NCBI RefSeq assembly: GCF_023716925.1
Contig: NZ_JAMQQG010000283.1
Coordinates: 1 to 54,594, forward strand
Length of the DNA: 54,594 nucleotides
Source: Frankia sp. R82
GTDB lineage: Bacteria; Actinomycetota; Actinomycetes; Frankiales; Frankiaceae
Reading direction: 5' to 3'
The translations under genes and the position numbers were made by a program. Below, in pieces: positions 8,499-44,760 of this stretch (its first letter is position 1; the number at the start of each line of letters is the position of its first letter). The notes beneath the pieces are model-generated. The model did not search any database. It was not told where the DNA came from and saw only the letters and a program-made list of their open reading frames with translations.

Positions 8499-8960
8499 CT
8501 AGCGTGGGATCTGGCCGCCGGCGGCGGAGCCGCCGCCACCGCCGAAGAGCTCACCCAGGGCGCCAAGGCCACCCAGACCGCTGGATGCGCCGCCGATGCC
8601 TGCGGGGCTGCTGGTCGCGCCTGGTCCACCCAGGCCACCGGTGAGCGAGCCCATCCGCTCGGCGGCGAGCCGATGGGCGTTGGTCGTGGCGTCCCGTACC
8701 GCGGCGAGAACCAGATCGGCGAGGGTCTCGGTGTCCTCCGGGTCGACCGCCTCGCGGCTGATCGTCAGGTCGACCAGTTCGCCGCCACCGTTGACGGTGG
8801 CCTTCACCAGACCGCCACCGGAGGTGCCGTCCACCCGGGCGCCCGCAAGTTCCTCCTGCGCCGAGATCAACGCGGCCTGCATCTGCTGCGCCTGCTGGAA
8901 GATCTGCCCCAGCGAGGCGCCTGCGCCCGCGTCGCCGACGGGAATCTGCGGGTTCGACAT
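8499..8960 (-). CDS. YbaB/EbfC nucleoid-associated protein
   Basis: 153 residues. The conserved core runs from [18 protein letters not shown] through [17 protein letters not shown]; members are dimeric DNA-binding proteins that act at the nucleoid. The family is usually about 110 residues; here a glycine-rich tail of some 45 residues follows ([11 protein letters not shown]...). It lies between dnaX and recR in one minus-strand operon. Confidence 0.93.
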
Positions 8961-12190: not shown

Positions 12191-12275
12191 GGAGGATTCG
12201 CCTAGTGGCCTAGGGCGCACGCTTGGAAAGCGTGTTGGGGGCAACCCCTCGAGAGTTCGAATCTCTCATCCTCCG
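12191..12275 (+). tRNA. tRNA-Ser(GGA)
   Basis: 85-base tRNA. The acceptor arm GGAGGAT pairs with ATCCTCC (12268-12274), the anticodon loop is TTGGAAA between CACGC and GCGTG, giving anticodon GGA, and a long class II variable arm precedes the T arm GAGAG-TTCGAAT-CTCTC. CCA is not encoded. Its 3' end is the integration site of the downstream element. Confidence 0.96.
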
Positions 12276-13856: not shown

Positions 13857-15018
13857 CCGGGAGCGCCTCCTGGCCCTCGCGAAGTCTGTCGGCGAGCCGG
13901 CCGAGTAGTTCGTGAGTGATCTCGCCTCGTCGCACTTCCGGATCCGAATCCGGATGGTCCTGTTCCGCGAGGATTCGGTCTCGCTCTTCAGGGAGCCAGC
14001 GGCCCCACAACTCCATCGCGAGTTTCGCAAGGTAGCCCGCAGGCCATCCCAGAGCCCGGGACGCCTCCTCCATAGCTGCCCGCGCGGCAAGCTCTGTCCG
14101 GATCTCCTCAGCCCGGGTGGACATCCACTCTGCCTGCCTGGCCTGGCGCTTGCGTGCGCTCATCTCCGGATCGTCAGGAAGTGGCCGCAGCTCCTCTTCG
14201 CGCTTCTCGTTCAGAGTCCGGAGACCCCACAGCGCCATCGCGGCCACAAGCACTTCTGAGACGCTGACGCCCAGCTGCCGGGCCACCGCCTGCTCAGCGT
14301 CACCCGACCGGCGTAGCAGGTTCGCCAAGAGTGACGGGTAGATCTCCTCGCCTGCGACCGTCACCTTGGACTCGTTGTTGATGATCGATTCATCCGCGTT
14401 CCGGACGACACCTGCGAGCAGGGGTACTGCTCCTGACTGGAGAGCCGCGTCGATCGCAGCCAACAGCCGCCGAGTCACGTGGCCGCGCAGCGCCTGCAGC
14501 CCACGTCCGTCGACAGCATTGCCGCGTGCTTCCACGTCGCGTGCCGTCTCCGCATCGCGTTGCGCGGTCAACGAGTTGCCCCATAGCCACATCGACGCGT
14601 CGAGCACTCGTTCCACTGGCACACCGAGTTTGCGTGCCGCCTGACGCTCCGCCTCCAACGCCTGCCGTGCGGTGGACGGTCCGGGCGGCCGAACATCAGG
14701 GCCGAACGGGGCCGTCGTGTCCCATGCCTGGGTCGATCTGACCAGCTGATGCACGGTGGCGCCGGTCAGGACCAGCCCCGGGGCGATCTCGATCATGTCA
14801 TCTTCGGCCGCGACGATCTCGACGAGCGGGCAGCCGAGGATCGCGGGAAGTAGTAGCAGTTCAGGCCCAGTCAGGGCTCTCTGCTCGGTCTCCAGCGCGG
14901 CGACCGTGCTGGGCTTCCAGCTCAGGCCCCACCTGGTCGCGCGTCCAGCGATCTCGGCCTGGGTCAGGCCGCTGTCCGTCCGCAGCCTGCGGAGACGCTC
15001 CGCGATGTTGCTGGTCAT
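13846..15018 (-). CDS. XRE-family regulator with long C-terminal part
   Basis: 390 residues. The N-terminus is a helix-turn-helix of the XRE type (IAERLRRLRTDSGLTQAEIAGRAT, about residues 5-28, then KPSTVAALETEQRALT). The rest is helical and contains two related segments, ARKLGVPVERVLDASMWLWG and ARQLGVSVSEVLVAAMALWG, plus a third weaker one (SRALGWPAGYLAKLAMELWG), so it is a threefold internal repeat of about 20 residues. It may be the element's repressor: it sits between the integrase and the divergent early operon. The start at 15018 has no strong ribosome binding site; the frame is open to 15144. Confidence 0.75.
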   Translation of the reverse strand: MTSNIAERLRRLRTDSGLTQAEIAGRATRWGLSWKPSTVAALETEQRALTGPELLLLPAILGCPLVEIVAAEDDMIEIAPGLVLTGATVHQLVRSTQAWDTTAPFGPDVRPPGPSTARQALEAERQAARKLGVPVERVLDASMWLWGNSLTAQRDAETARDVEARGNAVDGRGLQALRGHVTRRLLAAIDAALQSGAVPLLAGVVRNADESIINNESKVTVAGEEIYPSLLANLLRRSGDAEQAVARQLGVSVSEVLVAAMALWGLRTLNEKREEELRPLPDDPEMSARKRQARQAEWMSTRAEEIRTELAARAAMEEASRALGWPAGYLAKLAMELWGRWLPEERDRILAEQDHPDSDPEVRRGEITHELLGRLADRLREGQEALPDEG

Positions 15019-22100: not shown

Positions 22101-23117
22101 GTGACTCTGGTTGCCGTCGAGCAAGGTCAATCGGTTGTCCCAGTCGACTCCCACCGAAGGATGAGCGACGAGACCCGGGCAGAGGTGATCGCCTCGGTAC
22201 CCGAGAACACCGCCCGGTCATACCGCACTCAGTCCGCGAACTTCCGCGCATGGTGCGAACGGGAAGGTTGGCCCTTCCTCCCCACAACCGGCGACGCCCT
22301 GGCCGAGTACGCCCGCCATCTGATCAAAGAGGGGAAGGCCCCCGGATCCATCGACGTTGCCCTGTCCGTCATCCGGACCATGCACCGGGAGGATGACGCA
22401 GAGCTGCCCGACACCCGATACGCCCGGCGGCTGATCCGCGCCTACCGCCGTGACCGGGTTGACGCCGGTGTCCGCGACCGCCAGGCCCCGGCCGCCATCG
22501 CACGGACCATCCGCGCCATGATCGACACCTGCGACCCGGATACTCCGCAGGGCCTGCGTGACCGGGTGCTGCTACTGCTGGGCTTCGGCCTGATGGCGAG
22601 GCGGAGCGAACTGTCCCGGCTCGACATCAGCGACATCACTGTCGCCAGCGACGACAAGGGTCCGGCCAGCAAAGACAGGGGGCTGGTGGTCCGCATCGGC
22701 CGCAGCAAGACCGACCAGGCCGCCGCGGGCCGGGAAACGGTGATCCCGGCTGGCCGGACAGACGACGGCTGCCCCGTGGTCGCCGTGAGGACTTGGCTCG
22801 CCCACCTCGCTGAACAGGGCATCACCGACGGCCCGTTGCTGCGGCAGATCGACCGGCATGGGAAGGTCGGCGGCCGGCTCGGCGGGCAGTCGATTGACCG
22901 GATCGTGAAGCGGCTGGGTGACGCTGCGGGCTTGGGGGAGACGCTGTCCGCGCACAGCTTGCGGTCGGGTGCGGCGACGTCGGCAGCTGATGCGGGTGCC
23001 ACCCGCGCCGCGATCGCCGAACAAGGCCGGTGGAATCCCACCTCGAACGCGTTGGACCGGTACACCCGGCAGACCGATCTGTGGAAGAACAACGCGCTGA
23101 AGAACGTGGCGATCTAG
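22101..23117 (+). CDS. Cre-like tyrosine recombinase
   Basis: 338 residues, close to the 343 of phage P1 Cre and lacking an arm-binding domain. N-terminal helical core-binding domain with NTARSYRTQSANFRAWCEREG, then AEYARHLIKEGKAPGSIDVALSVIRTMHR; catalytic domain with GLMARRSELSRLD (Arg), IGRSKTDQAAAG (Lys), SAHSLRSGAATSA (His-x-x-Arg), GRWNPTSNALDRYTR (Trp/His-equivalent and Tyr nucleophile). The GTG at 22101 has AAGGGAG at 22087-22093. Likely role is resolving multimers of the excised, replicating element or inverting a segment. It ends tail to tail with the next gene, overlapping by 4 bases. Confidence 0.85.
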   Translation: MTLVAVEQGQSVVPVDSHRRMSDETRAEVIASVPENTARSYRTQSANFRAWCEREGWPFLPTTGDALAEYARHLIKEGKAPGSIDVALSVIRTMHREDDAELPDTRYARRLIRAYRRDRVDAGVRDRQAPAAIARTIRAMIDTCDPDTPQGLRDRVLLLLGFGLMARRSELSRLDISDITVASDDKGPASKDRGLVVRIGRSKTDQAAAGRETVIPAGRTDDGCPVVAVRTWLAHLAEQGITDGPLLRQIDRHGKVGGRLGGQSIDRIVKRLGDAAGLGETLSAHSLRSGAATSAADAGATRAAIAEQGRWNPTSNALDRYTRQTDLWKNNALKNVAI

Positions 23118-23677
23118 CAGTTCCAGGAACAGCCGTGCCCGCGGCAAGGGTCTGGTGCAGCTCGGATCCCCGCCGGATCGGTAGCTGCCTTGTACACGGC
23201 GCGGAGCCGTTCGTAGGTGGCCGAGGACAGGCCCAGCTCCTTCGCAACGATCGCCGAGACCTTGCCAGGACGAGAGCTACGGTCGACTTCCGCATCAGGT
23301 GATGCTGAGGTTGACCGTAGATCAGTCCGTGCGCCCTGACGCTCGCGGGCTTTCGGGGTTTCCAGTGCTTCGAGTGCCCTGCCGAGGGACATGAGTTCGG
23401 ACAGCTCCATCTCCTTGCGGAGACGGCGCAGAGCCTGCTCTTGACTCGTGCCACCAGGACGACCAACGTTGATATTATCAACGTTGGTTACTGCCTCGTC
23501 CGACCTGCGGTCTCCGCCATGCCGCCCCTGCGTCGCCTTGTCCAGCAGGTCCAGCAGGTCCAGCAGGTCATTGTCATCTGCGATCACGTCACGGATGAAC
23601 TTGACACTCACACCAAGACCATCCAACGGCTTCGCCTCGGCCTGTCGACGCACCCGGAAAGTCCGTGGACGGTACAA
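23114..23677 (-). CDS. Modular protein: RHGGDRRS domain plus ParB-type C-terminal part
   Basis: 187 residues. The first half has VSVKFIRDVIADDNDLLDLL and RATQGRHGGDRRS-like KATQGRHGGDRRSDE, then SQEQALRRLRK, a module common in phage and plasmid proteins. The second half, KEMELSELMSLGRALEALE, PKARERQ, VSAIVAKELGLSSATYERLRAVYKAA, is nearly the same as in the ParB-like gene at 33687. A 27-bp perfect palindrome lies within the coding sequence at the NVDNINV codons. The start (TTG at 23677) is uncertain. Possible role in partition or plasmid-state regulation. Confidence 0.6.
   Translation of the reverse strand: MYRPRTFRVRRQAEAKPLDGLGVSVKFIRDVIADDNDLLDLLDLLDKATQGRHGGDRRSDEAVTNVDNINVGRPGGTSQEQALRRLRKEMELSELMSLGRALEALETPKARERQGARTDLRSTSASPDAEVDRSSRPGKVSAIVAKELGLSSATYERLRAVYKAATDPAGIRAAPDPCRGHGCSWNC
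23462..23488. other. 27-bp perfect palindrome inside the modular gene
   Basis: ACCAACGTTGATA (23462-23474), a single T, then its exact inverse complement (23476-23488). It is AT-rich compared with the surroundings and lies inside a gene whose product resembles partition proteins. Candidate parS-like centromere or operator. Confidence 0.65.
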
Positions 23678-24264: not shown

Positions 24265-27200
24265 ATGGCAGTGGTCGGAACCGCCGAGATTGTGATCGTC
24301 CCAGTTCTGAAAAAGTTCGGGGACATCGGGACCCAGATCGGCAAGCAACTCGATGGTGTGGGCCTGGCCGCAGCCGGCACCGCCGGGCAGTTCGCGATTG
24401 CGGAGAAGAGCGCGGCGAGTGCCGCCAGCGAGTTGGGCGCGGCCGGCCTTGCAGCGGCGGGTACCGGCGGGAAACTAGCTTCGGCCGGTGAGGACGCGGG
24501 GAAACTGGAAGGCGGCTTGGGTCGGACCCGGCTTGCGGCGACCGCAGCACGGGATGGGTTGAAGGATGCCGAGTCGTCGGTGGCTTCGTTCGGAAGTCGC
24601 CTTGGCACGGTGGGGGCGACGGCTTCCGGCGCGTTCGGTGGGATGCTCGGTAGCGTCAAAAGCTTCGCGTTGGAAGCAACGAAGCTGGGCGCGCTGTTCG
24701 GGGTTGCCGGGGTCGCCGGGGCGATCTACGAAGGCACGAAGAAGGCCAACGAGTTTGAGGCCGAGATGGCGAAGCTCGGGACTCAAGCTGGCGCTACCAG
24801 TGCCGAGATCGCCGAAATGTCACCGGCTGTTCTCAACCTTGCGCAAAGCGTCGGGATCGGGCCGACCGGGCTGGCGGAGGGTCTGTATCACTTGGAGTCT
24901 GCGGGTTTCCGTGGGTCCGAGGCGTTGGACCTTCTGACTGCGGCGGCGAAGGAAGCGAAGATCGGCCATGCCGATCTGGAGAAGACGGTGCAGGCGTCGA
25001 TCGCCGTCGAAGCCAGCCATATCAAAGGTGTGAACGGCGCAGCGGACGCCATGGGCCTCCTCAACAAGATCGTCGGTGTGGGTGATACCCGCATGGAAGA
25101 CCTTGCCTCGTCAATGTCGTCGGGGATTGTGCCGACGGCGGCAACGTTCGGCCTGTCCATGCAGGACGTCGGCGCGAGCATGGCGACGCTGACCGACAAC
25201 GCGATCCCCGCGCAGGAAGCGGCGACCCGGCTGCGGATGACGTTCTCGCTGCTGGGAGCCCCATCGCTGACCGCGCAGAAAGCGTTGGCTTCGATCGGGG
25301 TCGGATCAACTCAGCTCGGTAACGATATGCGTAAACCGAACGGGCTCCTGGTCGCTTTGCAGGATTTGAAGGGGCATCTTGAGGCGTCGGGGATGTCCGC
25401 TACCGATCAGGCTGCGGTGATCAGCCGGGCGTTCGGCGGCGGCAAATCATCCTCGGCGATCATGACTTTGTTGTCGCAGATGGACCGGTTGCAGGGCAAG
25501 TACACGCAGCTGGAAACAGGTGGGATGTCCAGTGCTGCGCAGTTCGACAAGGCGTGGTCAGACACGCAGCAGACGACGTCTCAGAAGCTCGCGACGCTCC
25601 GCGGATCGTTCGATGCCCTTCTCGTCAAGGTCGGTGAGTCCACTCGGGGTGCCCAAGGATCACTTGCTAGCTTCGGCTCGAAGGCGGTCGGTGCCGTGTC
25701 GAGGGGCATCGATGCTGTTGGCGCGGCGAACAAGGCTCGGTCCTCGGGCGGGCCGGTTCCGGTGCAGTCACCGGACATGCAGAAGCTTACGAAGGTCCTC
25801 GGTGACGTCTACAAGGCTGCCGATTCTGCGAAGAAAATTTTCGTGGAGATCGAACCGGCGCTGAAGAACATTGGGAAGGCCGCTGCCGGGGTCGTAGCTG
25901 TCGGTATCCATGTGATCGCCGATGTGCTCAAGGAAATTTCGGATCATGGCAGTCTGGCCCGAGATCTGGTCTACGGGATCGCCGGGGCCTTCACCGCCTA
26001 CAAGATTGCGATGCTGGCGGCTGCGGCGGCGGAGAAGGTGATGGCCGCCGCGACCTGGCTCCTCGACACGGCGTTGGATGCCAACCCCGTGATGCTCGTG
26101 GTGATAGCGATCGCTGCGCTGGTCGCCGGTGCGATCCTGGCCTATCGCCACGTCGGGTGGTTCCGCGATGCGGTCAATGCTGTCGGCCGGGCGTTGAAAG
26201 ACGCCGCGATGTGGGTTGCGCACATGTCAGAGACGATCTGGCATGGGCTGGTCGACGCTTTCCACGCGGTGGTCAACGCGGGCGAGTCCGTGTGGCATGC
26301 CGTGGACAAGGCGTTCCGTGCGGTGGTGGATGCGGGTAAGTCGGTGGGCCGCGGGCTGTCCTCGGCTTTCCACGGAGTCGAGGACGCAACGAAGTCGGTG
26401 GGCCGGTTCTTCTCCCGCATGTATGACGATGTGAAGCATTGGCTTGGCGTGGCCTTGGATTTCGTGAAGAAATGGGCTCCGCTGATTGCGATCGTCATGT
26501 CCGGTGGGCTGCTGCTGATCCCGGTGCTGGTCGCGAAATATTGGCGGCAGATCTACGATTTCACCGTCCGGATTTTCACGGACGTGAAAAACTTCATCGT
26601 TCGGATCTTCGATGATGTGAAAAACGGCGTCATGGCCGCAGTAAATGCCGTGGTCGACTTTTTCGAACGGCATTGGCGGCTGATCCTCGTGATCGCCACC
26701 GGGGTCACCGGCCTCCTCATCGTTCTGATTGTCAACAACTGGAGTCGCATCACCGGTCTTTTCAAGGCCGGCTGGGAGGCTGTGTCCGGGTTCATGTCCA
26801 GAATGTGGCATGACGTCGCCGGGGCGTTCTCGTCCATGTGGCATGAGGTGTCCGATATCGCCTCCCGGATCTGGCGGGATGTCGCCGGGGCGTTCACTTC
26901 GCTTGGCCGCAGTATCGCCGACATTGCGACTAAAGCATGGCATGAGGTGGCAAACGCTTTCAGCTCGGCGGGCCGTGAGGTGGCGGGCATTGCAACTCGG
27001 CTTTGGCATGACGTAGCGGATGCCTTTACTTCGCTATGGCGAGATGCGTCGAACCTTGGTTCGCGTATCTGGCACGATGTGGCTGGGGCTATCACGTCGC
27101 TGTGGCATGAGGCCGTTAACTTGGCGGGCCGTATCTGGCATGATGTGGCGTCTCCGATCGAATCTTTGTGGCATGAGGCGTCGACCGCTGTATCTAGCTT

Positions 27201-28671
27201 GTGGCACGAGGTAGTCTCCGCGCTCTCGAACTTGTGGCGGGATGCGACGGGCTTGGCAGGCCGCATCTGGCATGAGACGTCAGCGCCGTTCGTGAGCCTG
27301 TGGCATGAGATGTCGACGACCGCGTCGAATCTGTGGAAAGACGTTACCGGCTGGTTCGAGCGGATCAAAAACGATATTACGAATTCCGTGAAAACCGCCA
27401 CCGGGTGGATCAAGGGTGCGTGGGACGGGCTGAAAGACATTTTCAAAGCCCCCATCAACTTCCTGATCAGCCCCGTCTTCAACAAAGGCATCCTCCCCGT
27501 GTGGAACGCCTTCGCTCCGATCGTCCACGAAAGCAAAATGGAACCAGTCAGTCAGTTCGCCGAAGGCGGCCCTATCACCGGCGGCCGGGCTGGCCGCGAC
27601 TCTGTACCTGCCCTGCTCATGCCCGGTGAACACGTGTGGACCGCCGCCGAAGTCGCCGCGGCCGGCGGGCAGAAAGCAATGTTCGCGTTGCGCCGGCTGT
27701 TCGGCGGGGGCACCCAAGCCCCGGGGGCCGCGATGGCCGGAGGCGGTATTCCCGGCGGTGGGGTCCTCGGCGCAATCGCGGATGCGGTCACTGACCCGCT
27801 CGGCACCCTAAAAGCCCTCGGTGAGGGCACTATCGACGTGATCGGTACCGCTGTGCACTGGGTACGTGGCGCGCTGGCCGATGCCGCGCAGACCGCGTTC
27901 ACCCCGATCCGCGCCATCGTCGCCTCGACGCTGGGTACCGGTGAGGACTGGAAGGGCGCGGCTGGCCGGCTCGCCGAGTCCCCCATGGACGCGATCGTCA
28001 ACCTGCTGCGCGGCCAGGACAAAACGGACCAGGCCGCTGCGGCGCAGGCTGCCGCGTCCGCTGGGGGTGCCGCCCGGTGGGCGCCGGTGATGACCGCGGC
28101 GCTTGCGCAGGCAGGGCAGAGCGCGTCGTGGCTGTCCCTCGGCCTGCAACGGATGAACCAGGAGTCCGGTGGTGATCCCAATGCGGTCAACCGGTGGGAC
28201 TCGAACTGGACGGCAGGGCATCCCTCCGTCGGCCTGATGCAGCTGATCAATTCGACGTTCGCTGCCTATGCCGGCCCGTACCGCAACACCGGGCCGTTCT
28301 CGTACGGGGTGTCGACGGATCCGATGGCGAACGTGTATGCGTCGATCAAGTACACCGATGCCCGCTACGGCAGCCTGTCCGCCTGGGGCCGGCCCGGTGG
28401 CTACGACACCGGCGGCGGGAAAGCCTGGCCGACGGGGACTCTCGGCTACAACCTGTCCGGTGAAACCGAGTACGTGTGGAAGGGCTCGCAGCTGGCGGGG
28501 ATGAGCACCGCGACGACCCGCGGTGGGACGACGAACACGTTCCACGTCGCAGTCGACGCCCGCGGTTCCACGGACCCGGCTGCCACTGAACGGGCGGTGC
28601 GCCGCGGTGTCGCCGACGCCCTTGCCACCCTCGACCAGATGTTGCAGCAGGGTGTAGGGGGCGGATCCTGA
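24265..28671 (+). CDS. Phage tail tape-measure protein with lytic transglycosylase domain
   Basis: 1468 residues. The TIGR01760/PhageMin_Tail core is at about residues 150-420 (AGATSAEIAEMSPAVLNLAQ; GLYHLESAGFRGSEALDLL). Hydrophobic segments occur around 575-640, 735-760 and 810-830. From about 840 to 1045 there is a tryptophan repeat with units such as RIWHDVAGAF and SLWHEAS, typical of tape-measure repeats whose number sets tail length. Then FAEGGPITGGRAGRDSVPALLMPGEHVW, and an SLT-type muramidase at about 1270-1385 (NQESGGDPNAVNRWDSN; VGLMQL). Complete and without frameshift, but no other tail gene is present. Base composition is less GC-rich than its neighbours. Confidence 0.93.
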   Translation: MAVVGTAEIVIVPVLKKFGDIGTQIGKQLDGVGLAAAGTAGQFAIAEKSAASAASELGAAGLAAAGTGGKLASAGEDAGKLEGGLGRTRLAATAARDGLKDAESSVASFGSRLGTVGATASGAFGGMLGSVKSFALEATKLGALFGVAGVAGAIYEGTKKANEFEAEMAKLGTQAGATSAEIAEMSPAVLNLAQSVGIGPTGLAEGLYHLESAGFRGSEALDLLTAAAKEAKIGHADLEKTVQASIAVEASHIKGVNGAADAMGLLNKIVGVGDTRMEDLASSMSSGIVPTAATFGLSMQDVGASMATLTDNAIPAQEAATRLRMTFSLLGAPSLTAQKALASIGVGSTQLGNDMRKPNGLLVALQDLKGHLEASGMSATDQAAVISRAFGGGKSSSAIMTLLSQMDRLQGKYTQLETGGMSSAAQFDKAWSDTQQTTSQKLATLRGSFDALLVKVGESTRGAQGSLASFGSKAVGAVSRGIDAVGAANKARSSGGPVPVQSPDMQKLTKVLGDVYKAADSAKKIFVEIEPALKNIGKAAAGVVAVGIHVIADVLKEISDHGSLARDLVYGIAGAFTAYKIAMLAAAAAEKVMAAATWLLDTALDANPVMLVVIAIAALVAGAILAYRHVGWFRDAVNAVGRALKDAAMWVAHMSETIWHGLVDAFHAVVNAGESVWHAVDKAFRAVVDAGKSVGRGLSSAFHGVEDATKSVGRFFSRMYDDVKHWLGVALDFVKKWAPLIAIVMSGGLLLIPVLVAKYWRQIYDFTVRIFTDVKNFIVRIFDDVKNGVMAAVNAVVDFFERHWRLILVIATGVTGLLIVLIVNNWSRITGLFKAGWEAVSGFMSRMWHDVAGAFSSMWHEVSDIASRIWRDVAGAFTSLGRSIADIATKAWHEVANAFSSAGREVAGIATRLWHDVADAFTSLWRDASNLGSRIWHDVAGAITSLWHEAVNLAGRIWHDVASPIESLWHEASTAVSSLWHEVVSALSNLWRDATGLAGRIWHETSAPFVSLWHEMSTTASNLWKDVTGWFERIKNDITNSVKTATGWIKGAWDGLKDIFKAPINFLISPVFNKGILPVWNAFAPIVHESKMEPVSQFAEGGPITGGRAGRDSVPALLMPGEHVWTAAEVAAAGGQKAMFALRRLFGGGTQAPGAAMAGGGIPGGGVLGAIADAVTDPLGTLKALGEGTIDVIGTAVHWVRGALADAAQTAFTPIRAIVASTLGTGEDWKGAAGRLAESPMDAIVNLLRGQDKTDQAAAAQAAASAGGAARWAPVMTAALAQAGQSASWLSLGLQRMNQESGGDPNAVNRWDSNWTAGHPSVGLMQLINSTFAAYAGPYRNTGPFSYGVSTDPMANVYASIKYTDARYGSLSAWGRPGGYDTGGGKAWPTGTLGYNLSGETEYVWKGSQLAGMSTATTRGGTTNTFHVAVDARGSTDPAATERAVRRGVADALATLDQMLQQGVGGGS

Positions 28672-28710: not shown

Positions 28711-28953
28711 ATGGCAGTTCGGGCACTCGCTTCGAGGCGGTGGTGGCCGGAACGTCAGTACCGTCCCAGCCCGCCTTCGTGGACGCCGATGCACCTTGCA
28801 GCGCAGAACGATCGCTGGGCCGATCTGTTCGTGGGCCCGCTCGTCCATGCCATTGAGGATGGCCGCCTGCGCCCCGGTCAGGAAGTGGCCTTCACGTGCC
28901 CCTTCGCCCGGTCAGGCCGGGGAGATCAGCTTGACCGTGAAATGCGCCAGTGA
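28711..28953 (+). CDS. Possible small protein after the tape-measure gene
   Basis: 80 residues (MHLAAQNDRWADLFVGPLVH, IEDGRLRPGQEVAFTCPF). Orderly composition in the second half, but the ribosome binding site is weak, and the 3' end overlaps the converging lipoprotein gene by 42 bases. No family recognised. Confidence 0.3.
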   Translation: MAVRALASRRWWPERQYRPSPPSWTPMHLAAQNDRWADLFVGPLVHAIEDGRLRPGQEVAFTCPFARSGRGDQLDREMRQ

Positions 28954-29718
28954 TCCCCCGCCGTTGGCCTGGTAGTCGGCTTCGACCTGGAACGTGCCCA
29001 TCGGGTCCTGGGCACTGAACTGGGCGAGGAACATGCCGCTCACCGACGGCGGCAGCGTGTTCGGGCCGGTGCCGCCCACCGTGTCGTGCTGTGAACCGCC
29101 TGAGACCATCTCAGCCGCGTTGTAGGCCATCGTGACGGTGCCCGAGGTCTCGTTCGTCACCTTGTAGGCAACGACGACAGTGGCGTTGCCTGTGTCCGAG
29201 TAGGCGCCCATCGGCTGGACTGTGACGCCACTGGCGGTCTGCGCCGGGCCGCCGACGGCAACGACCGTGCGGACTGGCTGGCCGTCGATGTCGAAGGTGG
29301 AGATGAGCCCGTGGCCGTCGAGGTGGAAGTTCGAGAACTCGGCGCACGGATGCGGATCTTCGGGGACGTTGTCGCACTCGGTCAGCGTCCCTGGCTTCCC
29401 TTGGCTCGTGAACCGGCCGGCCGGCAGCGTGTGACCGGCCGACGTCTCCGCGTCTGTGAAGGCCACGAGGTAGTTGATGTACGCCCGTGCCGCCGAACCC
29501 GGCGAGGTGAGCGGCACCGTGTCCTGCTGCCCTTTGAGGGTGGTGGTCGTCAGGCCGGAAACGAACCGGACGGCTATGTCGTCCTGGGACGGGCTGGGCG
29601 AGTGGGATGCTGAGAGCGGTGCTGTCGGCTCTGCCGTCGAGCGCGAGTCCTCGCCGCTGCCGCATGAGGCGGCGAGGAACAGAGCGATGCAGGCCCCCGC
29701 GATCCTGACCATCTGCAT
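28912..29718 (-). CDS. Secreted lipoprotein, unknown function
   Basis: 268 residues. Lipoprotein signal peptide MQMVRIAGACIALFLAASC with lipobox LAASC; the mature part starts with a Ser/Pro-rich tether (ASHSPSPSQDD) and contains AARAYINYLVAFTDAET, and a beta-rich C-terminal half ending HFTVKLISPA, with two cysteines (CDNVPEDPHPC) that could form a disulfide. It would be anchored outside the membrane. Not recognised as a known family. The start at 29718 is set by the signal peptide. One of four exported proteins encoded by this element. Confidence 0.8.
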   Translation of the reverse strand: MQMVRIAGACIALFLAASCGSGEDSRSTAEPTAPLSASHSPSPSQDDIAVRFVSGLTTTTLKGQQDTVPLTSPGSAARAYINYLVAFTDAETSAGHTLPAGRFTSQGKPGTLTECDNVPEDPHPCAEFSNFHLDGHGLISTFDIDGQPVRTVVAVGGPAQTASGVTVQPMGAYSDTGNATVVVAYKVTNETSGTVTMAYNAAEMVSGGSQHDTVGGTGPNTLPPSVSGMFLAQFSAQDPMGTFQVEADYQANGGGSLAHFTVKLISPA

Positions 29719-29793
29719 GCGGCCGGACACTACTCGCCGGCTCGCTGTCTGCCGATGGGCGGGAAAACCCTGCCAGGGCACATGATCCCTGGT

Positions 29794-33686: not shown

Positions 33687-34208
33687 CTAGTCAGACTGCG
33701 CCGGTGCGGCTGCCGGGCCGATTAGAATCCGGTAGCCGCGGGCCGGGTCCTCCGCGGCCCGGTAGACACTCCGAAGACGCTCGTAGGTCGTCGGTGTCAG
33801 ACCCAGCTCACGGGCGACCACCGCCGCCGTCTCTCGCGAACGCCGATCCCCTCGGGCTGGCATCTCCCGAGCGTCCGGTCTCCCCGCTCCTGAGGGGAGA
33901 CCGCTTTGATCTTGCCTGTTGGTGACGGCGGCGCCTCGACGCCTGCCCTCCTGTTGCCTCTCTCGGGCCTTCGGCGCTTCCAACTCTTCCAACGCCTTCC
34001 CGAGGGACATGAGTTCGGACAGCTCCATCTCCTTCCTGTAGACGTTCTCTGCCTGTTCGGCGCGGAGTCCAGCGAGGGCGTCGGCAAGGTGGGAGGCGAC
34101 GAGGGTGGGGATCAGCGCGTCGCCGTGGGCCATGCGGTGGGCGCGTAGTCGGCGTTCCCCGCAGATCAGGGTGCCGTCGGAGCGGATGATGATGGGTTCC
34201 GCATCTCC
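33687..34208 (-). pseudogene. ParB-like protein missing its N-terminus
   Basis: An ATG at 34133 gives 148 residues, but reading further upstream the frame encodes the ParB core EPIIIRSDGTLICGERRLRAH (to about 34208) without a start codon before it reaches a terminator hairpin at 34217-34252. The rest is ...KEMELSELMSLGKALEELEAPKARERQ and VVARELGLTPTTYERLRSVYRAAEDP, nearly the same as in the gene at 23114. It lacks the first part of the ParB nuclease-like domain. It may be a decayed gene, or be expressed from 34133 as a shortened protein. Confidence 0.6.
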
Positions 34209-35149: not shown

Positions 35150-35929
35150 CTAAGCGCCGCCGATCGGGATTCGGTAGCCGCGGGCCGCGTCCTCGGCGGG
35201 GCGGACGATGTCCGCCGTTTCTACCGGCCGCTCGCCGGCCAGGTGGGCGCGTTCGACGACCTGCACCCACGAACCGGATGACAGGCCGAGGGCCTGCCGT
35301 TCGGCATCCAACGCCGGGCGGGCCCGCACGATCTCCGTCACCGCGTCGATGTGCACGCCGATCGTGTCGAATCGGGCGACGACCCCCACCGGGCCGTCAC
35401 TGCCTTCAGGTTCCTCGATGGCTGTGCCGCCGACCAGGGCGAACGGCTCCCAGCTCACGGAACTTTGCGTTGGTTGACCGTTCGCGAGGAAGACGTACTC
35501 CGTCCTCATCACATGATCACCGGCTTCGATGCCGAGCCGCGCCGCAATGTCGGGTTCGGCGCGTTCCCTGCGGGTGATGTACCGCCAGTCGGCGGTGGCC
35601 TTGACCTTGGCAGCGTCACGGGCGAACGGCGACGTCGGCCCGCTTGAGTCCCGCTGGTAGCGGTCGGTCGCCCACTGGACGGAAACCGCCGGTCGGCGGC
35701 GTGCGAAGGTGCCCCGTCCGGGTTGGCGGACGATCCATCCTTCCGCGCGCAGCACGTCGAGTGCCTGACGGACGGTCGGCCTGGTGGTGCGCCACTCCGC
35801 GGCGAGGGTGCTGTCTGATCCCACCCGTTCGCCTGCGGCTATCCGTCCGTCGACGATCTTGGTGCGGATGTCATCGGCGATCCGCAGGTAGAGGGCTCGT
35901 TCGTCGCCGCTGCCCGCACTGTCCGTCAT
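35150..35929 (-). CDS. GntR/UTRA-family regulator
   Basis: 259 residues. N-terminal winged helix (ALYLRIADDIRTKIVDGRIAAGERVGSDSTLAAEW, then TTRPTVRQALDVLRAEGWI, about 12-68) and C-terminal UTRA ligand domain. Relatives control transfer genes in actinomycete integrative elements (KorSA type). It faces the small-gene operon across a control region with several palindromes, which are its likely operators. The last 15 codons resemble at DNA level the 3' end of the ParB-like relic. Confidence 0.9.
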   Translation of the reverse strand: MTDSAGSGDERALYLRIADDIRTKIVDGRIAAGERVGSDSTLAAEWRTTRPTVRQALDVLRAEGWIVRQPGRGTFARRRPAVSVQWATDRYQRDSSGPTSPFARDAAKVKATADWRYITRRERAEPDIAARLGIEAGDHVMRTEYVFLANGQPTQSSVSWEPFALVGGTAIEEPEGSDGPVGVVARFDTIGVHIDAVTEIVRARPALDAERQALGLSSGSWVQVVERAHLAGERPVETADIVRPAEDAARGYRIPIGGA

Positions 35930-36060
35930 GGACAGTGACGCTACCGGAACTTGTCTAGAGCGGTCGAATAGCTTCGACCGTCACGCATCCCGCAACCGCT
36001 CTAGACAGCTCTAGACAGGCTGTGTAACGTCCCCCGCATCACACCGACACGGGAGGGCAC
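35930..36060. promoter_or_regulatory. GntR operator array
   Basis: TGTCTAGAGCGGT (35952-35964) is inverted as ACCGCTCTAGACA (35995-36007). GCTCTAGACAG recurs at 35998 and 36008. Between the outer arms lies a perfect palindrome CGGTCGAA-TAGC-TTCGACCG (35961-35980). The region controls the divergent GntR gene and small-gene operon. Confidence 0.75.
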
Positions 36061-36452: not shown

Positions 36453-36866
36453 ATGTCCACCATTTTCACCGACCACCCCGACCTGGCCAACCTCGGCCGT
36501 GGCGGCGCCGTAGCCGGCCACATGCTCGACGCCAACGCGCAGATGGCCGCCTGGGCGCAGAACGCCGACTGGTACGACAAGTTCCGCGTCTACGGTTTCC
36601 GCTCTAACGAGTACTGGATCTACAAGGGCCGTCTCGTAGGCGGCGCCTATGCGTCCGACTCCTTCGGCGACGTACTGGACGGTGACCGCGACGCCATCCG
36701 CCGGGTCTACGCGACGATCCGCGAGCATCGCGACAACGCCGACAAGGCACACCCCGGCAGCCTCACGCAGAACTTCCACCGGGGCTATGCGGAGGGCTGC
36801 GAGGAAATATTCGACCGCATGTTCGGCGCCCTCGACGCCGCCATCGCCGAACGCAAGGCGGACTGA
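36453..36866 (+). CDS. Unknown protein, aromatic-rich
   Basis: 137 residues. The middle (QNADWYDKFRVYGFRSNEYWIYKGRLVGGAYASDSFGD) is rich in Tyr, Trp and Phe. The rest is helical, ending in NFHRGYAEGCEEIFDRMFGALDAAIAE. AGGAGG at 36440-36445 fixes the ATG. A strong terminator follows. No family recognised. Confidence 0.7.
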   Translation: MSTIFTDHPDLANLGRGGAVAGHMLDANAQMAAWAQNADWYDKFRVYGFRSNEYWIYKGRLVGGAYASDSFGDVLDGDRDAIRRVYATIREHRDNADKAHPGSLTQNFHRGYAEGCEEIFDRMFGALDAAIAERKAD

Positions 36867-36908
36867 CCTCGACCGGCGCGTGCCCACCCCGCGCCGGTCC
36901 ACCCGGAA

Positions 36909-36943
36909 GGCCGCCCCGCCGGTTCGCCAGCGGCGGGGCGGCC
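36909..36943 (+). terminator. Terminator
   Basis: Perfect 13-bp stem GGCCGCCCCGCCG (36909-36921) with 36931-36943 and a 9-base loop, 42 bases after a stop. Confidence 0.8.
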
Positions 36944-36992
36944 TCCACCCCCAGCCTCCGCACCACACGTTCAACAATTCGAAGGACACGTC

Positions 36993-37415
36993 ATGGCCAG
37001 TCATGACCCTCTGGGCGCCCGCACGCAGCACCCCATCGGACCCGTCGAAATCACCTGGCGGGATCTACCGGAGCCGAACGAGGACCACGCCGACGCTCTC
37101 CTCCCTGCCGACCACGTGGCCGGCATGCTGTACGTCGAGGACCAACGGTTGTTCTCCGTGGTGGTCCCCCACGACGAGGTGCTTACCGGGCCCACCCACT
37201 CCGCGACGTCAGTTGGTCGACTCCGCAAGGTCCTCGATGGCCTCCCTGACGACCTGATCCTGATCGCCGCATACCTTCCCTGGGACCACGAACACGACGA
37301 GTCCACCCGGTTCGTGTTCGTCGACTGCGTCGGCTGTAGCGACGGGCTGATCGGCAGCAGCACGCCGACAGACGACACCGACAGTGGCCCCGTCAACAGG
37401 GTGACGGCAGCATGA
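36993..37415 (+). CDS. Unknown protein, first of a coupled small-gene chain
   Basis: 140 residues. PVEITWRDLPEPNEDHADALLPADHVAGMLYVEDQRLFSVVVPHDEV and LDGLPDDLILIAAYLPWDHEHDESTRFVFVDCVGC suggest an alpha/beta fold. No motif is diagnostic. Its stop overlaps the next start as ATGA, beginning a run of six genes linked by 4-base overlaps. Confidence 0.65.
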   Translation: MASHDPLGARTQHPIGPVEITWRDLPEPNEDHADALLPADHVAGMLYVEDQRLFSVVVPHDEVLTGPTHSATSVGRLRKVLDGLPDDLILIAAYLPWDHEHDESTRFVFVDCVGCSDGLIGSSTPTDDTDSGPVNRVTAA

Positions 37416-37690
37416 CCGGCGGCCCGATCATCCCCGCAGACCTTCTCGAACCGACCTCGGCGGACATGGCCGAACTTCGGACATGCTTCCGCGACTGCCT
37501 CACGCTCACCGAAGCCCGCTGTGAACTGATCGTCTGGGCGAGCCATATCGACGACATCGCCGAAGCCCTCACGGCCGGCGACACCTCGACTGCTGCCCGG
37601 TACATCCGGCTGATCCGCGCCGCCCGCCGTGTGAGGGCCGAGTGGTCGGCAGCGGACCGGACGGTCGACCTTCCCGGCAGCGTCCTGTGA
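37412..37690 (+). CDS. Small helical protein of the coupled chain
   Basis: 92 residues: DMAELRTCFRDCLTLTEARCELIVWASHIDDIAEALTAGDTSTAARYIRLIRAARRVRAEW. Similar in design to the next protein (a helix, then 'D-G-D-T-x-x-A', then a basic helix), so the two may be duplicates. Start and stop overlap neighbours by 4 bases. Confidence 0.6.
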   Translation: MTGGPIIPADLLEPTSADMAELRTCFRDCLTLTEARCELIVWASHIDDIAEALTAGDTSTAARYIRLIRAARRVRAEWSAADRTVDLPGSVL

Positions 37691-37974
37691 GCATCGGCCC
37701 GGCAACGGCCGGCACGGCGATCGGCTCAACGGACCTCGAACCATCCCCGTCGACGCTAGCTCTGTGGACCGCAGCGTTCTCGAAGGTCACCAACCTTCGA
37801 GACCACCGATCCCTCATGAACGCGGGCACCGTCCACGCCGAGGCCGTCGTCGATGCCCTCGACCGCGGCGACACCGGCCTGGCCGTGGAGATGGTGCGGG
37901 TGCTCGTGGCCCACATCCGCGCCGGCCGCACCCGCTGGCACGAACTGGACGGGCAACCGCAGGGCGCCCGATGA
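37687..37974 (+). CDS. Small helical protein, related in layout to its neighbour
   Basis: 95 residues: ALWTAAFSKVTNLRDHRSLMNAGTVHAEAVVDALDRGDTGLAVEMVRVLVAHIRAGRTRWHEL. The DRGDTGLAVEMVR part parallels TAGDTSTAARYIR of the preceding gene. GTG at 37687 overlaps the previous stop as GTGA. Confidence 0.6.
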   Translation: MSIGPATAGTAIGSTDLEPSPSTLALWTAAFSKVTNLRDHRSLMNAGTVHAEAVVDALDRGDTGLAVEMVRVLVAHIRAGRTRWHELDGQPQGAR

Positions 37975-38264
37975 GCGGCCCCTACACGTCGGAAGCGCAG
38001 GCAGCCGGCGAGCCGATGCCCCGCGCCATCCGCGATCTACATGACGCAGGCCGGATCCGCTCCGGCGACCCGAATCGGATCCGGGCCACCACCGTCATGA
38101 ACCACACAGCCGACGCGCTCACAGCAACCGGGGTGGAACTCGGTGCATTCGACCGGCGCATCGTCACGTGGATGTGCTCGACGTGGGAGCCGACCGCAGT
38201 CCAAGTCGTTCTCGGGCTCGTCTCCCGCGCCCACGCAGCAGGACGGCAGAGCAGCGTCCGGTGA
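37971..38264 (+). CDS. Small unknown protein of the coupled chain
   Basis: 97 residues. EAQAAGEPMPRAIRDLHDAGRIRSGDPNRI, then GVELGAFDRRIVTWMCSTWEPTAVQVVLGLVSRAHAAG. No recognised domain. Overlaps both neighbours by 4 bases. Confidence 0.6.
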   Translation: MSGPYTSEAQAAGEPMPRAIRDLHDAGRIRSGDPNRIRATTVMNHTADALTATGVELGAFDRRIVTWMCSTWEPTAVQVVLGLVSRAHAAGRQSSVR

Positions 38265-38371
38265 GCACCCGAACACAAAAGCAGGCGAGCCTGACCGGCC
38301 ACGCTGTGGTGCCGCCGGCCGCGGTCACCAATTCGACCCCGACCACACGATTGACGAGGACATCACCATGA
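38261..38371 (+). CDS. Very small protein of the coupled chain
   Basis: 36 residues starting at GTG within a GTGA overlap and ending within an ATGA overlap. The sequence, AVVPPAAVTNSTPTT in the middle, recalls GVPAPAAANNPTPTT of the 46-residue protein at 15623. The double overlap suggests it is translated even though it is so short. Confidence 0.4.
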   Translation: MSTRTQKQASLTGHAVVPPAAVTNSTPTTRLTRTSP

Positions 38372-38760
38372 ACCACCCCGAGGAAGACGAGAACACCGAC
38401 GCGGCGGTCTTCGAGGACATCGCGGCCGTGCTCCGAGGCGACACGTCGTTCTTCGGACCGTTGTCCCCGGACAGCAGCCGGATCCTCGGCCTGCTGGCCT
38501 ACGGCATCCACGAGGTCTTCGTGTCGCTGGCGACCGACGACGCCCGCACCCTGGGGGAGACCAGCGCCGTCCGGCCGTACCTGTCCCGGGTCGAGTGCGA
38601 CCAGGTCGCCGAGCTGGTCGCCGGGATCGCGGACGCTTTCAGCCTGCCGAACGGGCCCACCACGACGAGGGCCCGCGGGTTCCTGGCCACCGCCGGCGGC
38701 CTTGCGGGAACTCTGGAGACCGCCGGTGGACACACGCTGGCCGTCGACTCCGCCGCCTGA
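38368..38760 (+). CDS. Unknown protein, last of the coupled chain
   Basis: 130 residues, acidic N-terminus (MNHPEEDENTDAAVFEDIAAVLRGDTSFFG), then helical: SSRILGLLAYGIHEVFVSLATDDARTL and VECDQVAELVAGIADAFSL. No recognised domain. Ends at the border of the non-coding repeat field. Confidence 0.65.
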   Translation: MNHPEEDENTDAAVFEDIAAVLRGDTSFFGPLSPDSSRILGLLAYGIHEVFVSLATDDARTLGETSAVRPYLSRVECDQVAELVAGIADAFSLPNGPTTTRARGFLATAGGLAGTLETAGGHTLAVDSAA

Positions 38761-38767: not shown

Positions 38768-39835
38768 TGCCGCAACCGCAGCCCTGCACACCTGCTCCGC
38801 AGCCCGCCGCACCGCAACCGGTGCGGGATCGGATCTGCGGGTTGGTGTGCGGGGCTGCGGCGTTTGCGGTGACCGTTGCGGCGGCCGGCTTGCGGTTGCG
38901 GAGCGCCGCAACGTTGCGGCGGCAGCGCCGGGAGTCTTGCGGTGACCGCAAGGTTGCGGCGGGCCTTTGCGGCCGGACGCATTGCGGTGACCGCAATCCG
39001 CAACTCGCAACCACACGGTGATCTTTGCGGCGGCCCGCAACGTTGCGGGCCGCACACCGCAAACGGGGCGGCCTGCATGTTGCGGTGCGGAGCTTGCGGT
39101 GTGCGGTGGCCGTGCGGTCCGCACCGCATGCGGTGCGGTGCGGTGTCCCCGTGCGGTGCGGCGATCTGGCCGTGCGGTGCGGGCCGCATGCGGTGCGACA
39201 TCCGCACCGCACGGTGCGGCGGTGCGGTCCGCGCCGCGGCTGACCTGCGGCGTGCGGTGGTTCCTCGCCGTGCGGTGCGGTCCCGCAACCATGCGGTGCG
39301 GTGCCGGTGCGGTGCGGTGGTCACCGCACGGTGCGCCGCATGCGGTGCCGGGCTGGCCTGCGGGTGTGCGGCGGCCGGTGCGGTGGTCTCGGATCCGGCG
39401 GGCTGGTGCGGCCGTGCGGTGCGGTGGTGCGGACTTGGTGCGGTGCGGCGGGCTGGCTCCCGTACGGTGCGGTGGCCATGTGGTGTGGCCGTACGGCGGC
39501 CGGCGTACGGTGCTTGGCCGTACGGTGCGGGGAGCCACCTGCCGCAGGTCCGTACGGTGCGGTGCGGCATGCGGTGACCGCACCGTACGGCGCCGAAGCC
39601 GCCCGAGCCGTACGGTGCGGTCCGATACGGCGAGCACCGTACGGGCATCACGGTTGAGCTGCGGTCATACGGAGTTCGGTACGGCCCGGACCGCACAGGT
39701 CGGAGCGTCCAGCCCTGCCGTACGGCGAGATGCGGTCTCCCGCAGCCGTACGGCCACATCCCAGACGTTGCCGTACGGGCGGCACTCCGTACCGGCTCGG
39801 CGGGTTCGTGCGGAGTCGCTTCGGTACGGGGCTGC
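38768..39835. repeat. Graded hexamer repeat field, non-coding
   Basis: About 1.07 kb packed with one motif that changes in steps. Left third (to about 39090): TTGCGG, about 13 direct and 8 inverted copies, including palindromes such as CCGCAACGTTGCGG. Middle (39080-39470): GTGCGG, about 26 copies on the plus strand and few on the other. Right (39460-39835): GTACGG, about 13 copies, most within the palindrome CCGTACGG. Each step changes one base. Open frames on both strands here are Arg/His/Pro-rich by-products of the repeat. Confidence 0.85.
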
Positions 39836-39974
39836 CACCGTCCGACCGGTGCAGTCGTGCGCCGGGGTGGACGAGGCAGGGCCTGCGGTACGTCGATGCC
39901 AGCGTGGCACCGATATCCCACAAGCGGCGCATCGTGCGCCGCCCCGGTGCCGGGAGGCCGCGGTACTCAACCGT

Positions 39975-40379
39975 CTACCGACCGGGCGCGGAGTACGGGC
40001 AATACGGAGCAGCCGGCGTGCCCACGGCGATGTAGCAGTCCGGTGGATCGGAGACCAGCGCCGCACGGGTGCGGTCGCCGTAGCGGGCCCGGTCCTGCGC
40101 GGCACTGCTCAGCGACCAGATGTCAACGCCGTGCTGCCCCTGGCAGAAGCCTGAGCGCCACGAAGCCTGAGCCCACAGGGGTTCATGGTTGACGGTGGGC
40201 GCGTCGGTGGGCGGTGCTTCGGTATGACCGTCGCAGATGACGGCGTAGGCCCGCTGATACGGGGTGAGGCCGGGGCTGGTGGCAGCCGCCGGGGCCGGGC
40301 CGGCGGCAGGTGCACGTGTGCCGCAGGCCGCGACGGTGAGGCTGACGATGGCGATACCCAAAATGATGTTGCGGCGCAT
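39975..40379 (-). CDS. Small lipoprotein
   Basis: 134 residues. Signal peptide MRRNIILGIAIVSLTVAAC with lipobox VAAC, an Ala/Pro tether, then a compact domain with four cysteines (VICDGH, GFCQGQ, PDCYI, PYCPYS), likely two disulfides outside the cell. No family recognised. The ATG at 40379 is set by the signal peptide. Confidence 0.75.
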   Translation of the reverse strand: MRRNIILGIAIVSLTVAACGTRAPAAGPAPAAATSPGLTPYQRAYAVICDGHTEAPPTDAPTVNHEPLWAQASWRSGFCQGQHGVDIWSLSSAAQDRARYGDRTRAALVSDPPDCYIAVGTPAAPYCPYSAPGR

Positions 40380-40496
40380 GATGACGTTCCCCCCTGGCGT
40401 CGGACACAGGTTAGCGATGGGGGTGTCCCACATGACCGGTGCCCGTCTGAGCTGCGAGCGCCGGCCAGTCAGGAGAAATGGTCTAACTGACTATTT

Positions 40497-41018
40497 CTAT
40501 GCTGCGGGGCTGACCTTCGGCGACGGCGCCGACCGCTTCCGCGGCACATCCTCACCGAACACCGCGAAGTACAGCGCGGCGATCAGCTTCGTGTCCGGGT
40601 CCAACCGGCCCTCCGTGAAACGCACCTCGAACGGGCCGTACGTGCCGGGCCCGGCCTCTTCGAGTACTGGCCGGGCCTTCGCCTTCAACTTGCGGGCCAG
40701 GGCCTCCAGGCGGGCGGCCTCGGCCCATGCGGCGGCGGCTTCCTCGACCGGTCCGGCGGTGCGGGGGAGTGAGTGCAGGTCCCCGGTGGGACGGCGGTGC
40801 CAGCCGGGGACGGTCCGGGTGCGGCTGATGTTGGCTGCCCGTCGTTCGGCGTATGCCTCGACGCTGGCGGCGCTGACACCGCCGTCAAGGCGGGTGAGCT
40901 TGCCGGCGCGCAGGTAGCGGCGGGTGGTGGCCTCGGTGATGGTGAGGGCCGCGGCGGCGCTGCTGATGCTGATGGGGGAGTCGGTGGCGGCTGGTGTGAG
41001 GAGTTCGGTGATCGTCAT
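40497..41018 (-). CDS. Helix-turn-helix protein with charged C-terminal part
   Basis: 173 residues. N-terminal HTH_17-like region (ISISSAAAALTITEATTRRYLRAGKLTRLDGGVSAASVEAYAERR, about 16-60), then a helical segment (EEAAAAWAEAARLEALARKLKAKARPVLEE), and GTYGPFEVRFTEGRLDPDTKLIAALYFAVFGED. It faces the gene at 41139 across two copies of one operator and is the best candidate for binding them. The ATG at 41018 fits the operator position. Confidence 0.7.
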   Translation of the reverse strand: MTITELLTPAATDSPISISSAAAALTITEATTRRYLRAGKLTRLDGGVSAASVEAYAERRAANISRTRTVPGWHRRPTGDLHSLPRTAGPVEEAAAAWAEAARLEALARKLKAKARPVLEEAGPGTYGPFEVRFTEGRLDPDTKLIAALYFAVFGEDVPRKRSAPSPKVSPAA

Positions 41019-41057
41019 GGCTGCCCCCGGCTGGTGTGGTGGTTGAACACCACTCAA

Positions 41058-44595: not shown

Positions 44596-44599
44596 CGGT

Positions 44600-44619
44600 G
44601 GTGCCCACCGGGTGCCCAC
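44600..44619. other. Probable integrase arm sites, right end
   Basis: GGTGCCCAC at 44600-44608 and 44611-44619, 11 bases apart and 115 bases left of the right att core, matches the pair at 12357-12376 in sequence, spacing and orientation. Confidence 0.7.
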
Positions 44620-44733
44620 GCCGCGCGGAGAAACTTCCGATTCGGACCGGCTGTCCCCGATCATCCGAGAGGCGAAACCCGCTGCAGCGCAGGCACTTCT
44701 GGCCATGGTCGACTGTTTCCGACTGTCAGTCTG

Positions 44734-44760
44734 GAGAGTTCGAATCTCTCATCCTCCGCC
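44734..44760. repeat. attR core: 27-bp repeat of the tRNA-Ser end
   Basis: Exact copy of 12251-12277. The bases immediately outside differ, so this is the right boundary of the integrated element. Confidence 0.95.

Follow-up and report, generated by a model that had tools for sequence, protein, structure and literature searches.

Graded zones of short motifs in an integrated Frankia element form a candidate multi-site protein-binding region

Arrays of binding sites are known from plasmids, and winged helix-turn-helix (HTH) proteins of the RacA, BldC and Xis type bind DNA as arrays. In the replication region of the Streptomyces plasmid pWTY27, RepA binds an inverted repeat of about 105 bp that lies within a 300-bp iteron region (PMC3583192). 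The accessible parts of that paper describe 8-bp and 7-bp repeats, five copies of each, at the repAB locus; graded zones are not reported in those parts. The clt or TRS regions of Streptomyces conjugative plasmids also contain short repeats, which are few (four of 7 bp in the clt of pWTY27) and are read by a Tra protein, according to the available portions of PMC4170104 and PMC3218068. The sps/SpdA2 system of pIJ101 is linked to plasmid stability: SpdA2, a small DNA-binding protein, binds short palindromes that lie within its gene or close to it; as far as the available text of PMC4170104 goes, these occur in one to three copies and are highly conserved between plasmids.

The field described here occupies positions 38768–39835 of the window, by which we mean the whole 54,594-bp contig of Frankia sp. 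R82 that was analysed. It is 1,068 bp long and non-coding, and it holds 87 copies of three related hexamers on the two strands together (22 of TTGCGG, 41 of GTGCGG and 24 of GTACGG). Like the replication region of pWTY27, it combines a long inverted repeat with short direct repeats in non-coding DNA of an actinobacterial element. Its repeats outnumber the few of clt, and unlike those of sps they are present by the dozen and are diverging.

Per kilobase, the field contains 20.6 TTGCGG, 38.4 GTGCGG and 22.5 GTACGG. The corresponding densities were 0.46–0.64, 1.57–1.72 and 0.37–0.50 in three background samples (what remains of the window, a 231-kb sample of its own genome, G000, and one of 400 kb from a different Frankia genome, G005), which makes the field 22–61 times denser. 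When TGCGG and TACGG were counted together, the field had 107 copies, or 31–43 per 400 bp; elsewhere, no stretch of 1,068 bp exceeded 15 copies in the remaining window, 19 in the sampled part of G000 or 25 in that of G005. Among 500 dinucleotide shuffles of the field, the maxima were 6 TTGCGG, 11 GTGCGG and 5 GTACGG. On these G000 and G005 samples (231 kb and 400 kb), a genome-wide REP-like repeat was ruled out.

The motifs run along the field in the order TTGCGG, GTGCGG, GTACGG, with a single-base step between zones. Their 10th to 90th percentile positions are 38865–39078, 39085–39562 and 39490–39772, respectively, and adjacent hexamers bear the same label in 62 of 86 pairs (mean of 30.4 and maximum of 45 in 10,000 permutations). 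By hexamer mapping, zone A (38864–39100) carries TTGCGG in both orientations, including the two copies of CCGCAACGTTGCGG found in the field. Zone B (39085–39455, plus strand) carries GTGCGG together with CCGCATGCGG palindromes; across the field, GTGCGG is split 33 to 8 in favour of the plus strand. In zone C (39455–39835), GTACGG occurs mainly as CCGTACGG, of which the field has 10 copies, often with TGCGG following. GTGCGG overlaps into this zone, where many sites are CCGTACGGTGCGG, and isolated extra copies of the zone-C type reach about position 40010.

Spacing between sites is irregular, with 5 bp and 8 bp enriched and no clear helical phasing at 10–11 bp. Tandem Repeats Finder returned four weak rows for the field, with a top score of 56. 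A tandem repeat or minisatellite was ruled out because there is no regular head-to-tail period, and a CRISPR-like array because the hexamers are irregularly spaced and are not long identical repeats. The first-pass annotation, made from the sequence alone, had described more than 50 related hexamers in 1.07 kb, in three graded zones with GTGCGG favouring the plus strand, and had called the stretch neither tandem nor coding. This description agrees with our counts and with the comparison of relatives given below.

The field is part of an element, about 32.5 kb long, that is integrated at a tRNA-Ser gene (12191–12277). The element is bounded by identical 27-bp direct repeats: attL (12251–12277, plus strand), which is the 3' end of the tRNA gene, and attR (44734–44760, plus strand). 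An integrase is encoded at attL, within 12210–14090, and a second tyrosine recombinase is also present in the element. It shares with actinobacterial integrative conjugative elements (AICEs) its site-specific insertion at the 3' end of a tRNA gene, its att direct repeats and its integrase. A further AICE criterion is an FtsK/SpoIIIE-type Tra protein (PMC3218068, in the portion available); among the element ORFs scanned, Pfam gave no match to FtsK/TraB, relaxase or ParA, and terminase, portal and capsid were likewise without a match. A 25-bp sequence near attL (12356–12380) recurs with 24 of 25 positions identical near attR (44599–44623), and these two copies are possible integrase arm sites. 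The zone-C site type CCGTACGGTGCGG occurs once just inward of attL, at 12378–12390, and contains the sole CCGTACGG of the window outside the field.

Among the products encoded by the element are a DnaB-type helicase, a tape-measure-like protein of 1468 aa and a regulator of the GntR/UTRA type. The tape-measure-like protein (24265–28671) has a transglycosylase domain, is the sole phage structural match among the scanned ORFs, and has homologs in contigs of G008, G009 and G011. The regulator gene (35150–35929, minus strand, by Pfam) has TCTAGAC/GTCTAGA-type repeats on its promoter side, at 35950–36020, between it and a divergent small ORF; these are free of field motifs and are likely the GntR operator. 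A cluster of small ORFs follows (36453–38264, plus strand), and several of these have homologs in both F. canadensis and F. tisae or in one of them. Immediately before the field lies a gene for a 130-aa protein (38368–38760, plus strand), whose structure prediction was unusable (pLDDT 49). To the right, ORFs read toward the field, so that it lies between converging genes. The nearest (39975–40433, minus strand) encodes one hydrophobic N-terminal segment by hydropathy and has no counterpart in the F. canadensis contig.

A search of related elements found the field at the homologous place in F. canadensis (G008:C154) and F. tisae (G009:C446), with an identical zone order in all three species. 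These are the three known field-bearing loci, of which the one in F. tisae is cut by a contig end. Each field has 80–165 copies of T[G/A]CGG; lengths differ between species, and in both relatives the field continues beyond zone C with TGCGT, CTGCGC and GTGCGC motifs. In a profile search, homologs of the 130-aa protein were present in 3 of 35 family genomes, exactly those with the field. The field has been kept although this adjoining protein is only 37–40% identical among the three species and DnaB 67–79%. No conserved protein spans the field in the two relatives, where the only matches were weak and came from antisense frames or from frames made of repeats. The window and F. canadensis both have a minus-strand frame that runs through the field uninterrupted; since several frames are long by composition, this openness carries no weight. 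The backbone of the element is common to F. canadensis, and parts of it occur in contigs of G004, G006, G009 and G011. Those related-element contigs have no such field, which appears, as far as seen, to be an accessory module. The F. tisae contig (L024, 1–3836) ends within the field, suggesting that assembly failed at the repeats; element genes also lie on further contigs of this genome.

None of the matches that we read beyond these loci was a further field of this kind. When 58 relatives were searched by blastn with the field, 28 genomes had matches, its own included; three non-field matches that we read (in G030, in G005 and on contig C361 of the same genome) were all simple tandem arrays. 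Intergenic tandem arrays of GTGCGG or its complement lie at about 6034–6178 of L027, 7030–7166 of L026 and 4713–4812 of L028, these loci being from other Frankia-family genomes and from another place in the R82 genome. A spaced CCGTACGG pattern matched 6 of 296 class genomes, namely the three with the field and G118, G175 and G228; the stretches read around the matches in G118 and G175 showed no dense field. A triple TTGCGG pattern was uninformative, with matches in 193 of 296 genomes; in G001 and G007 it fell in short stretches between genes, the former with about nine field-type hexamers in about 110 bp. Field DNA had no blastn match among phage and plasmid records, and neither the 130-aa protein nor the protein encoded at 28912–29781 had a relative in IMG/VR. 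The leader pattern matched 75 stretches in IMG/VR, with at most 13 TGCGG/TACGG per 400 bp. A literature search weighted to openly accessible papers found no account of such a field.

Within the three fields, the motifs are set around a common scaffold. Its exact core, GYYGRCCTRC, has nine plus-strand matches and no minus-strand match across the fields. By comparison, 300 shuffles gave a mean of 0.27 and a maximum of 3, and the chromosomal rate of 0.14 per kb would give about 0.7; the core was first noticed by eye, which makes this enrichment test post hoc. When up to two mismatches were allowed, there were 20 plus-strand and 24 minus-strand matches, with no strand bias. Pattern matching places two copies in zone B of the window (39239–39248 and 39352–39361, both plus strand), and with alignment a diverged copy with one mismatch in zone C (39653–39662, plus strand). 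The scaffold alignment comprises 12 places, nine with the exact core and three diverged ones that were picked by eye.

Around the core, one palindrome-like site precedes and two follow, and they carry the motif of their zone. The attached sites are TTGCGG in zone A, ATGCGG or GTGCGG in zone B, and ATACGG or GTACGG in zone C (window and F. tisae); in further zones they are TGCGC or TGCGT (D) and TTACGG and CTGCGG (E). There are exceptions: the zone-C scaffold of F. canadensis has CCGTAC before the core and ATATGG and GTGCGG after it, and 1 of the 12 places, F. tisae 2188, aligns poorly. At one orthologous place, TTGCGG in F. canadensis stands against ATGCGG or GTGCGG in F. tisae and the window. 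The alignment indicates duplicated modules with mostly coordinated motif change, which is unlike passive slippage. Because point changes at separated sites agree within a module, these few places suggest selection of the module motifs by a common reader. Slippage and conversion are unlikely sources, since slippage alters neighbouring copies and conversion would have copied the scaffold as well.

Our preferred reading, which we hold with slightly better than even confidence, is that proteins bind the field in cis at many sites to maintain or transfer the element, and that the specificity of its modules has drifted fast. The long inverted repeat and the many short sites in duplicated modules would together form a cis-acting DNA region, and a DNA-binding protein of the element (or of a helper) would occupy many sites at once. 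The bound complex may then serve partition, tethering or transfer of the excised element. The modules would have been born by duplication of a block of about 300–560 bp, and the sites of one module would shift together, tracking the specificity of the binding protein, which would produce the graded zones. Density and zoning beyond chance argue for this reading, as do the place and order kept in diverged elements and the ParB-like family gene found right after the F. canadensis field; private-motif fields elsewhere support the general idea by analogy. Arguing against it are the lack of bias in the relaxed scaffold, the exceptions in F. canadensis zone C and at F. tisae 2188, the absence of phasing and of ParA, FtsK/TraB and relaxase matches, the weakness of both candidate binders described below, and the number of field-bearing loci, which is three. 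The first-pass annotation had also proposed a multi-site binding region, with a recognition sequence that drifts or is read by several related proteins, and our results support this in part. To it we can add that the field recurs at an equivalent position with its zone order intact and that its motifs mostly change together; protein binding, the binder, a role in the element and co-evolution of sites and protein are what we infer.

One candidate binder comes from a ParB-like family. Two window proteins match phrog_12047, a ParB-like partition nuclease, over part of their length: the one encoded at 33687–34133 (minus strand; E 9.1e-6) and, weakly, the one at 23114–23677 (minus strand; E 0.0052). 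Both genes are kilobases from the field. A further gene of this family, on the plus strand in F. canadensis (38114–38455, or 18114–18455 of L030; 113 aa), starts directly after the field there; its product had no PHROG match. The family had no Pfam match over the cut-off, and a PDB sequence search returned nothing relevant. Compared with ParB/parS partition, a ParB-like protein that occupies many sites would be in keeping with the field, and the family gene abuts it in F. canadensis, but the ParB-like match here appears weak and partial and the scanned ORFs gave no ParA match. A ParB-like binder may be regarded as a weak lead. To our knowledge, no graded series of sites has been described for parS.

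The other candidate is the product of a gene that converges on the field (40497–41057, minus strand). It is predicted to have the winged-HTH fold of Xis, BldC and RacA: its AlphaFold model (mean pLDDT 79) was matched by Foldseek to Pukovnik Xis (probability 1.00), BldC (0.82–0.94) and RacA (0.77–0.92), with a best E-value of 0.052. In F. canadensis, a homolog lies to the right of the field with one gene between, but homologs in G006, G011 and another G009 contig have no adjoining field. Next to a weak homolog (L158) lies a GTCGACC-rich stretch that resembles a coding linker; it was rejected as a field.

The best-precedented special case of the binding-region reading is a replication origin of the excised element, at which an initiator would read the leader inverted repeat and iterons; we consider it rather improbable. 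The leader (38776–38860, from RNA folding in three species) opens the field and is an inverted repeat of about 85–100 bp, conserved and of similar size in all three field-bearing species, and pWTY27 offers the precedent (PMC3583192, in its accessible parts). The element also encodes a DnaB-type helicase preceded, in our own reading, by a helicase-loader-like protein. These two genes are at 16–18 kb, about 8.7 kb from the field by way of the att junction. A local GC-skew minimum lies at about 38.7 kb, but the skew tracks gene orientation; one DnaA-box-like match lies at 39866, but such boxes are not clustered at the field, and the 15 most AT-rich windows are all off it. The 80–165 sites are also many for iterons. 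Among the element ORFs scanned, Pfam found no RepAM or Prim-Pol, with the DnaB-type helicase present instead; RepSA is identified by a separate model of its own (PMC3218068, in the portion available). No match to a known initiator family was found beside the field, where an adjacent gene encodes the HTH protein.

About equally improbable in our judgement is selfish or neutral repeat DNA, in which functionless motifs would have spread through a gene-free gap by slippage and local conversion. The enriched 5-bp and 8-bp spacings would fit such an origin, as would the intergenic GTGCGG-type tandem arrays found elsewhere and the variation in field length by species, and the scaffold evidence comes from few places. 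Against this, the overall spacing is irregular and the TRF scores are weak, and zone order has been preserved across three diverged elements. Separated motifs that change together on a kept scaffold would be hard to obtain by slippage or by long conversion tracts.

A clt-like transfer or mobilisation site, with an FtsK-like TraB supplied by the host or a helper element as its reader and with zones for several helpers, is less probable again. Clt regions contain short repeats recognised by Tra proteins, in the available parts of PMC3218068 and PMC4170104. The type calls for repeats in or near the element's own tra gene; no FtsK-type tra gene was found among the scanned ORFs of this element. An element whose scanned ORFs hold no transfer motor could be mobilised in trans, and two comparable fields, on Nocardia plasmids, adjoin mobilisation genes. 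However, when 12 FtsK-domain regions were inspected, out of 46 matches in the three field genomes, none had more than 9 TGCGG/TACGG per 400 bp, and a 111-kb record with a CCGTACGG field gave no FtsK match.

We regard it as very unlikely that the field is an operator or leader region whose sites regulate a neighbouring gene. The F. canadensis gene at 38114–38455, with its ParB-like relatives, would be suitably placed immediately 3' of the field on the plus strand. In the window, however, the field sits between converging genes, a scan for sigma-70-like promoters (the one type it covers) found none in the region, and the number of sites is well beyond what an operator needs.

RNA folding was unusual at the leader alone, in all three species. 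Its fold z-scores were −7.2 in the window and −7.8 and −10.4 in the two relatives, and opposite strands fold equally well. The outer 17 pairs are kept in all three species (3 of them as G-U in one sequence), and several inner pairs are broken in one sequence. Covariation is slight, with one pair changed on both sides and an unfavourable covariation term. In the rest of the field, most 120-nt windows fold like shuffles and a few reach z −3 to −6, which points to action as DNA rather than RNA; a structured RNA was rejected accordingly. Rfam gave no family over the cut-off and one sub-threshold match, which lies outside the field. A structured RNA, a terminator region or an unannotated coding sequence is the least credible account, since the very stable leader just past a stop codon may end that transcript but lacks strand preference and any T-tract terminator in the region, and the open minus-strand frame is shifted by the 5-bp repeats and encodes no conserved protein. 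The preferred reading and its rivals overlap, and for this reason the odds we attach to them do not sum to one.

The binding-region reading gains a wider setting from fields in other actinobacterial elements. An IMG/VR search for two spaced CCGTACGG sites returned a single record, L206, in which about 700 bp rich in CCGTACGG cover the 3' portion of an ORF of 640 aa, reaching slightly past its stop. Since this locus was found by searching with the field motif, its sharing of CCGTACGG is not independent. Homologs of the L206 protein were found in eight plasmid-collection records. Four of the five examined have a field, and a Nonomuraea plasmid record has the homolog and no field. Three proteins of this type that we read are hydrophobic over their N-terminal half (two by a simple hydropathy threshold, the third by alignment with them) and carry a long variable linker, and in our own reading they appear to end in an HTH-like domain; none belongs to a Pfam family. 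A profile of the N-terminal region matched 24 of 393 class genomes.

Each of these loci has its own motif: GGTACC in a Thermobispora plasmid, CGATCGCGCG in Nocardia pNF2 and pPE-7, GCTCCGGAGCA in Nocardia HB204, and, among genomes, CGGTCCCC in G139 and G273, GGGGAC in G051, CGGTGCA in G118 and CCAGCGC in G232. Dense private-motif fields recur in actinobacterial elements, at 8940–9640 of L206, 8600–10000 of L282, 2200–3250 of L283, 4600–5750 of L284 and 1900–3050 of L285, and from about 2100 in L304 and L316. We tested 36 homologs against synonymous-codon shuffles on the correct strand, scoring whole k-mer recurrence with no motif chosen. Seven had z above 8, six had z of 4.6–5.8 and 23 had z of 3.4 or less; the low group includes many genes of one family (f17), which are about 417 aa long and probably chromosomal. 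In five of the seven, the top 6-mer exceeded its shuffle maximum too; in L304 it tied with the maximum and in L316 it fell one below. The six intermediate homologs (L305, L307, L314, L298, L306 and L309) had no clear excess of a top 6-mer; the first three, which we read, show motif clusters. A separate count took each gene's top 6-mer as its motif, a post hoc choice; in 8 of 9 motif-rich genes, its copies were spread over several reading frames and the two strands. In Thermobispora, all in-gene GGTACC copies are in one frame, so that an amino-acid repeat contributes there; 20 more lie in non-coding DNA within 800 bp after the stop.

Neighbouring genes include a ParA-family gene in pPE-7, an AAA ATPase and MobC in HB204, and a relaxase-domain gene in pNF2. 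The Thermobispora order (GntR on the minus strand, small plus-strand genes, a 668-aa gene, the field gene, a non-coding field and a minus-strand HTH gene) resembles that of the window, though its HTH protein is of another Pfam type. Like the Frankia field, the membrane-HTH gene fields (L206, L282–L285, L304 and L316) hold dozens of copies of a short private motif over about 1 kb, in elements that are mobile or presumed to be so. Unlike it, they are mostly intragenic and have one motif per element, with no graded zones seen. No test that we made detected homology between the two, and the N-terminal profile matched 0 of 13 Frankia genomes; since Frankia is without that protein, the link is one of analogy only. 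With this in mind, we tentatively propose, as an idea with appreciably less than even chances, that actinobacterial elements each mark their own DNA with about 1 kb of a private motif and read it with their own, often membrane-anchored, protein. Fast divergence would prevent cross-recognition, and the Frankia field would be such an address in the middle of a change.

We know of no array in which a common scaffold bears module motifs that change together by single bases, in a succession that three species share. Should the sites track the specificity of a protein, the field would be a record of a protein and its sites changing partners, and its zones would provide a ready series of test substrates. 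The parallel private-motif fields elsewhere among actinobacterial elements suggest that self-recognition in mobile DNA follows a more general principle, one that can be tested.
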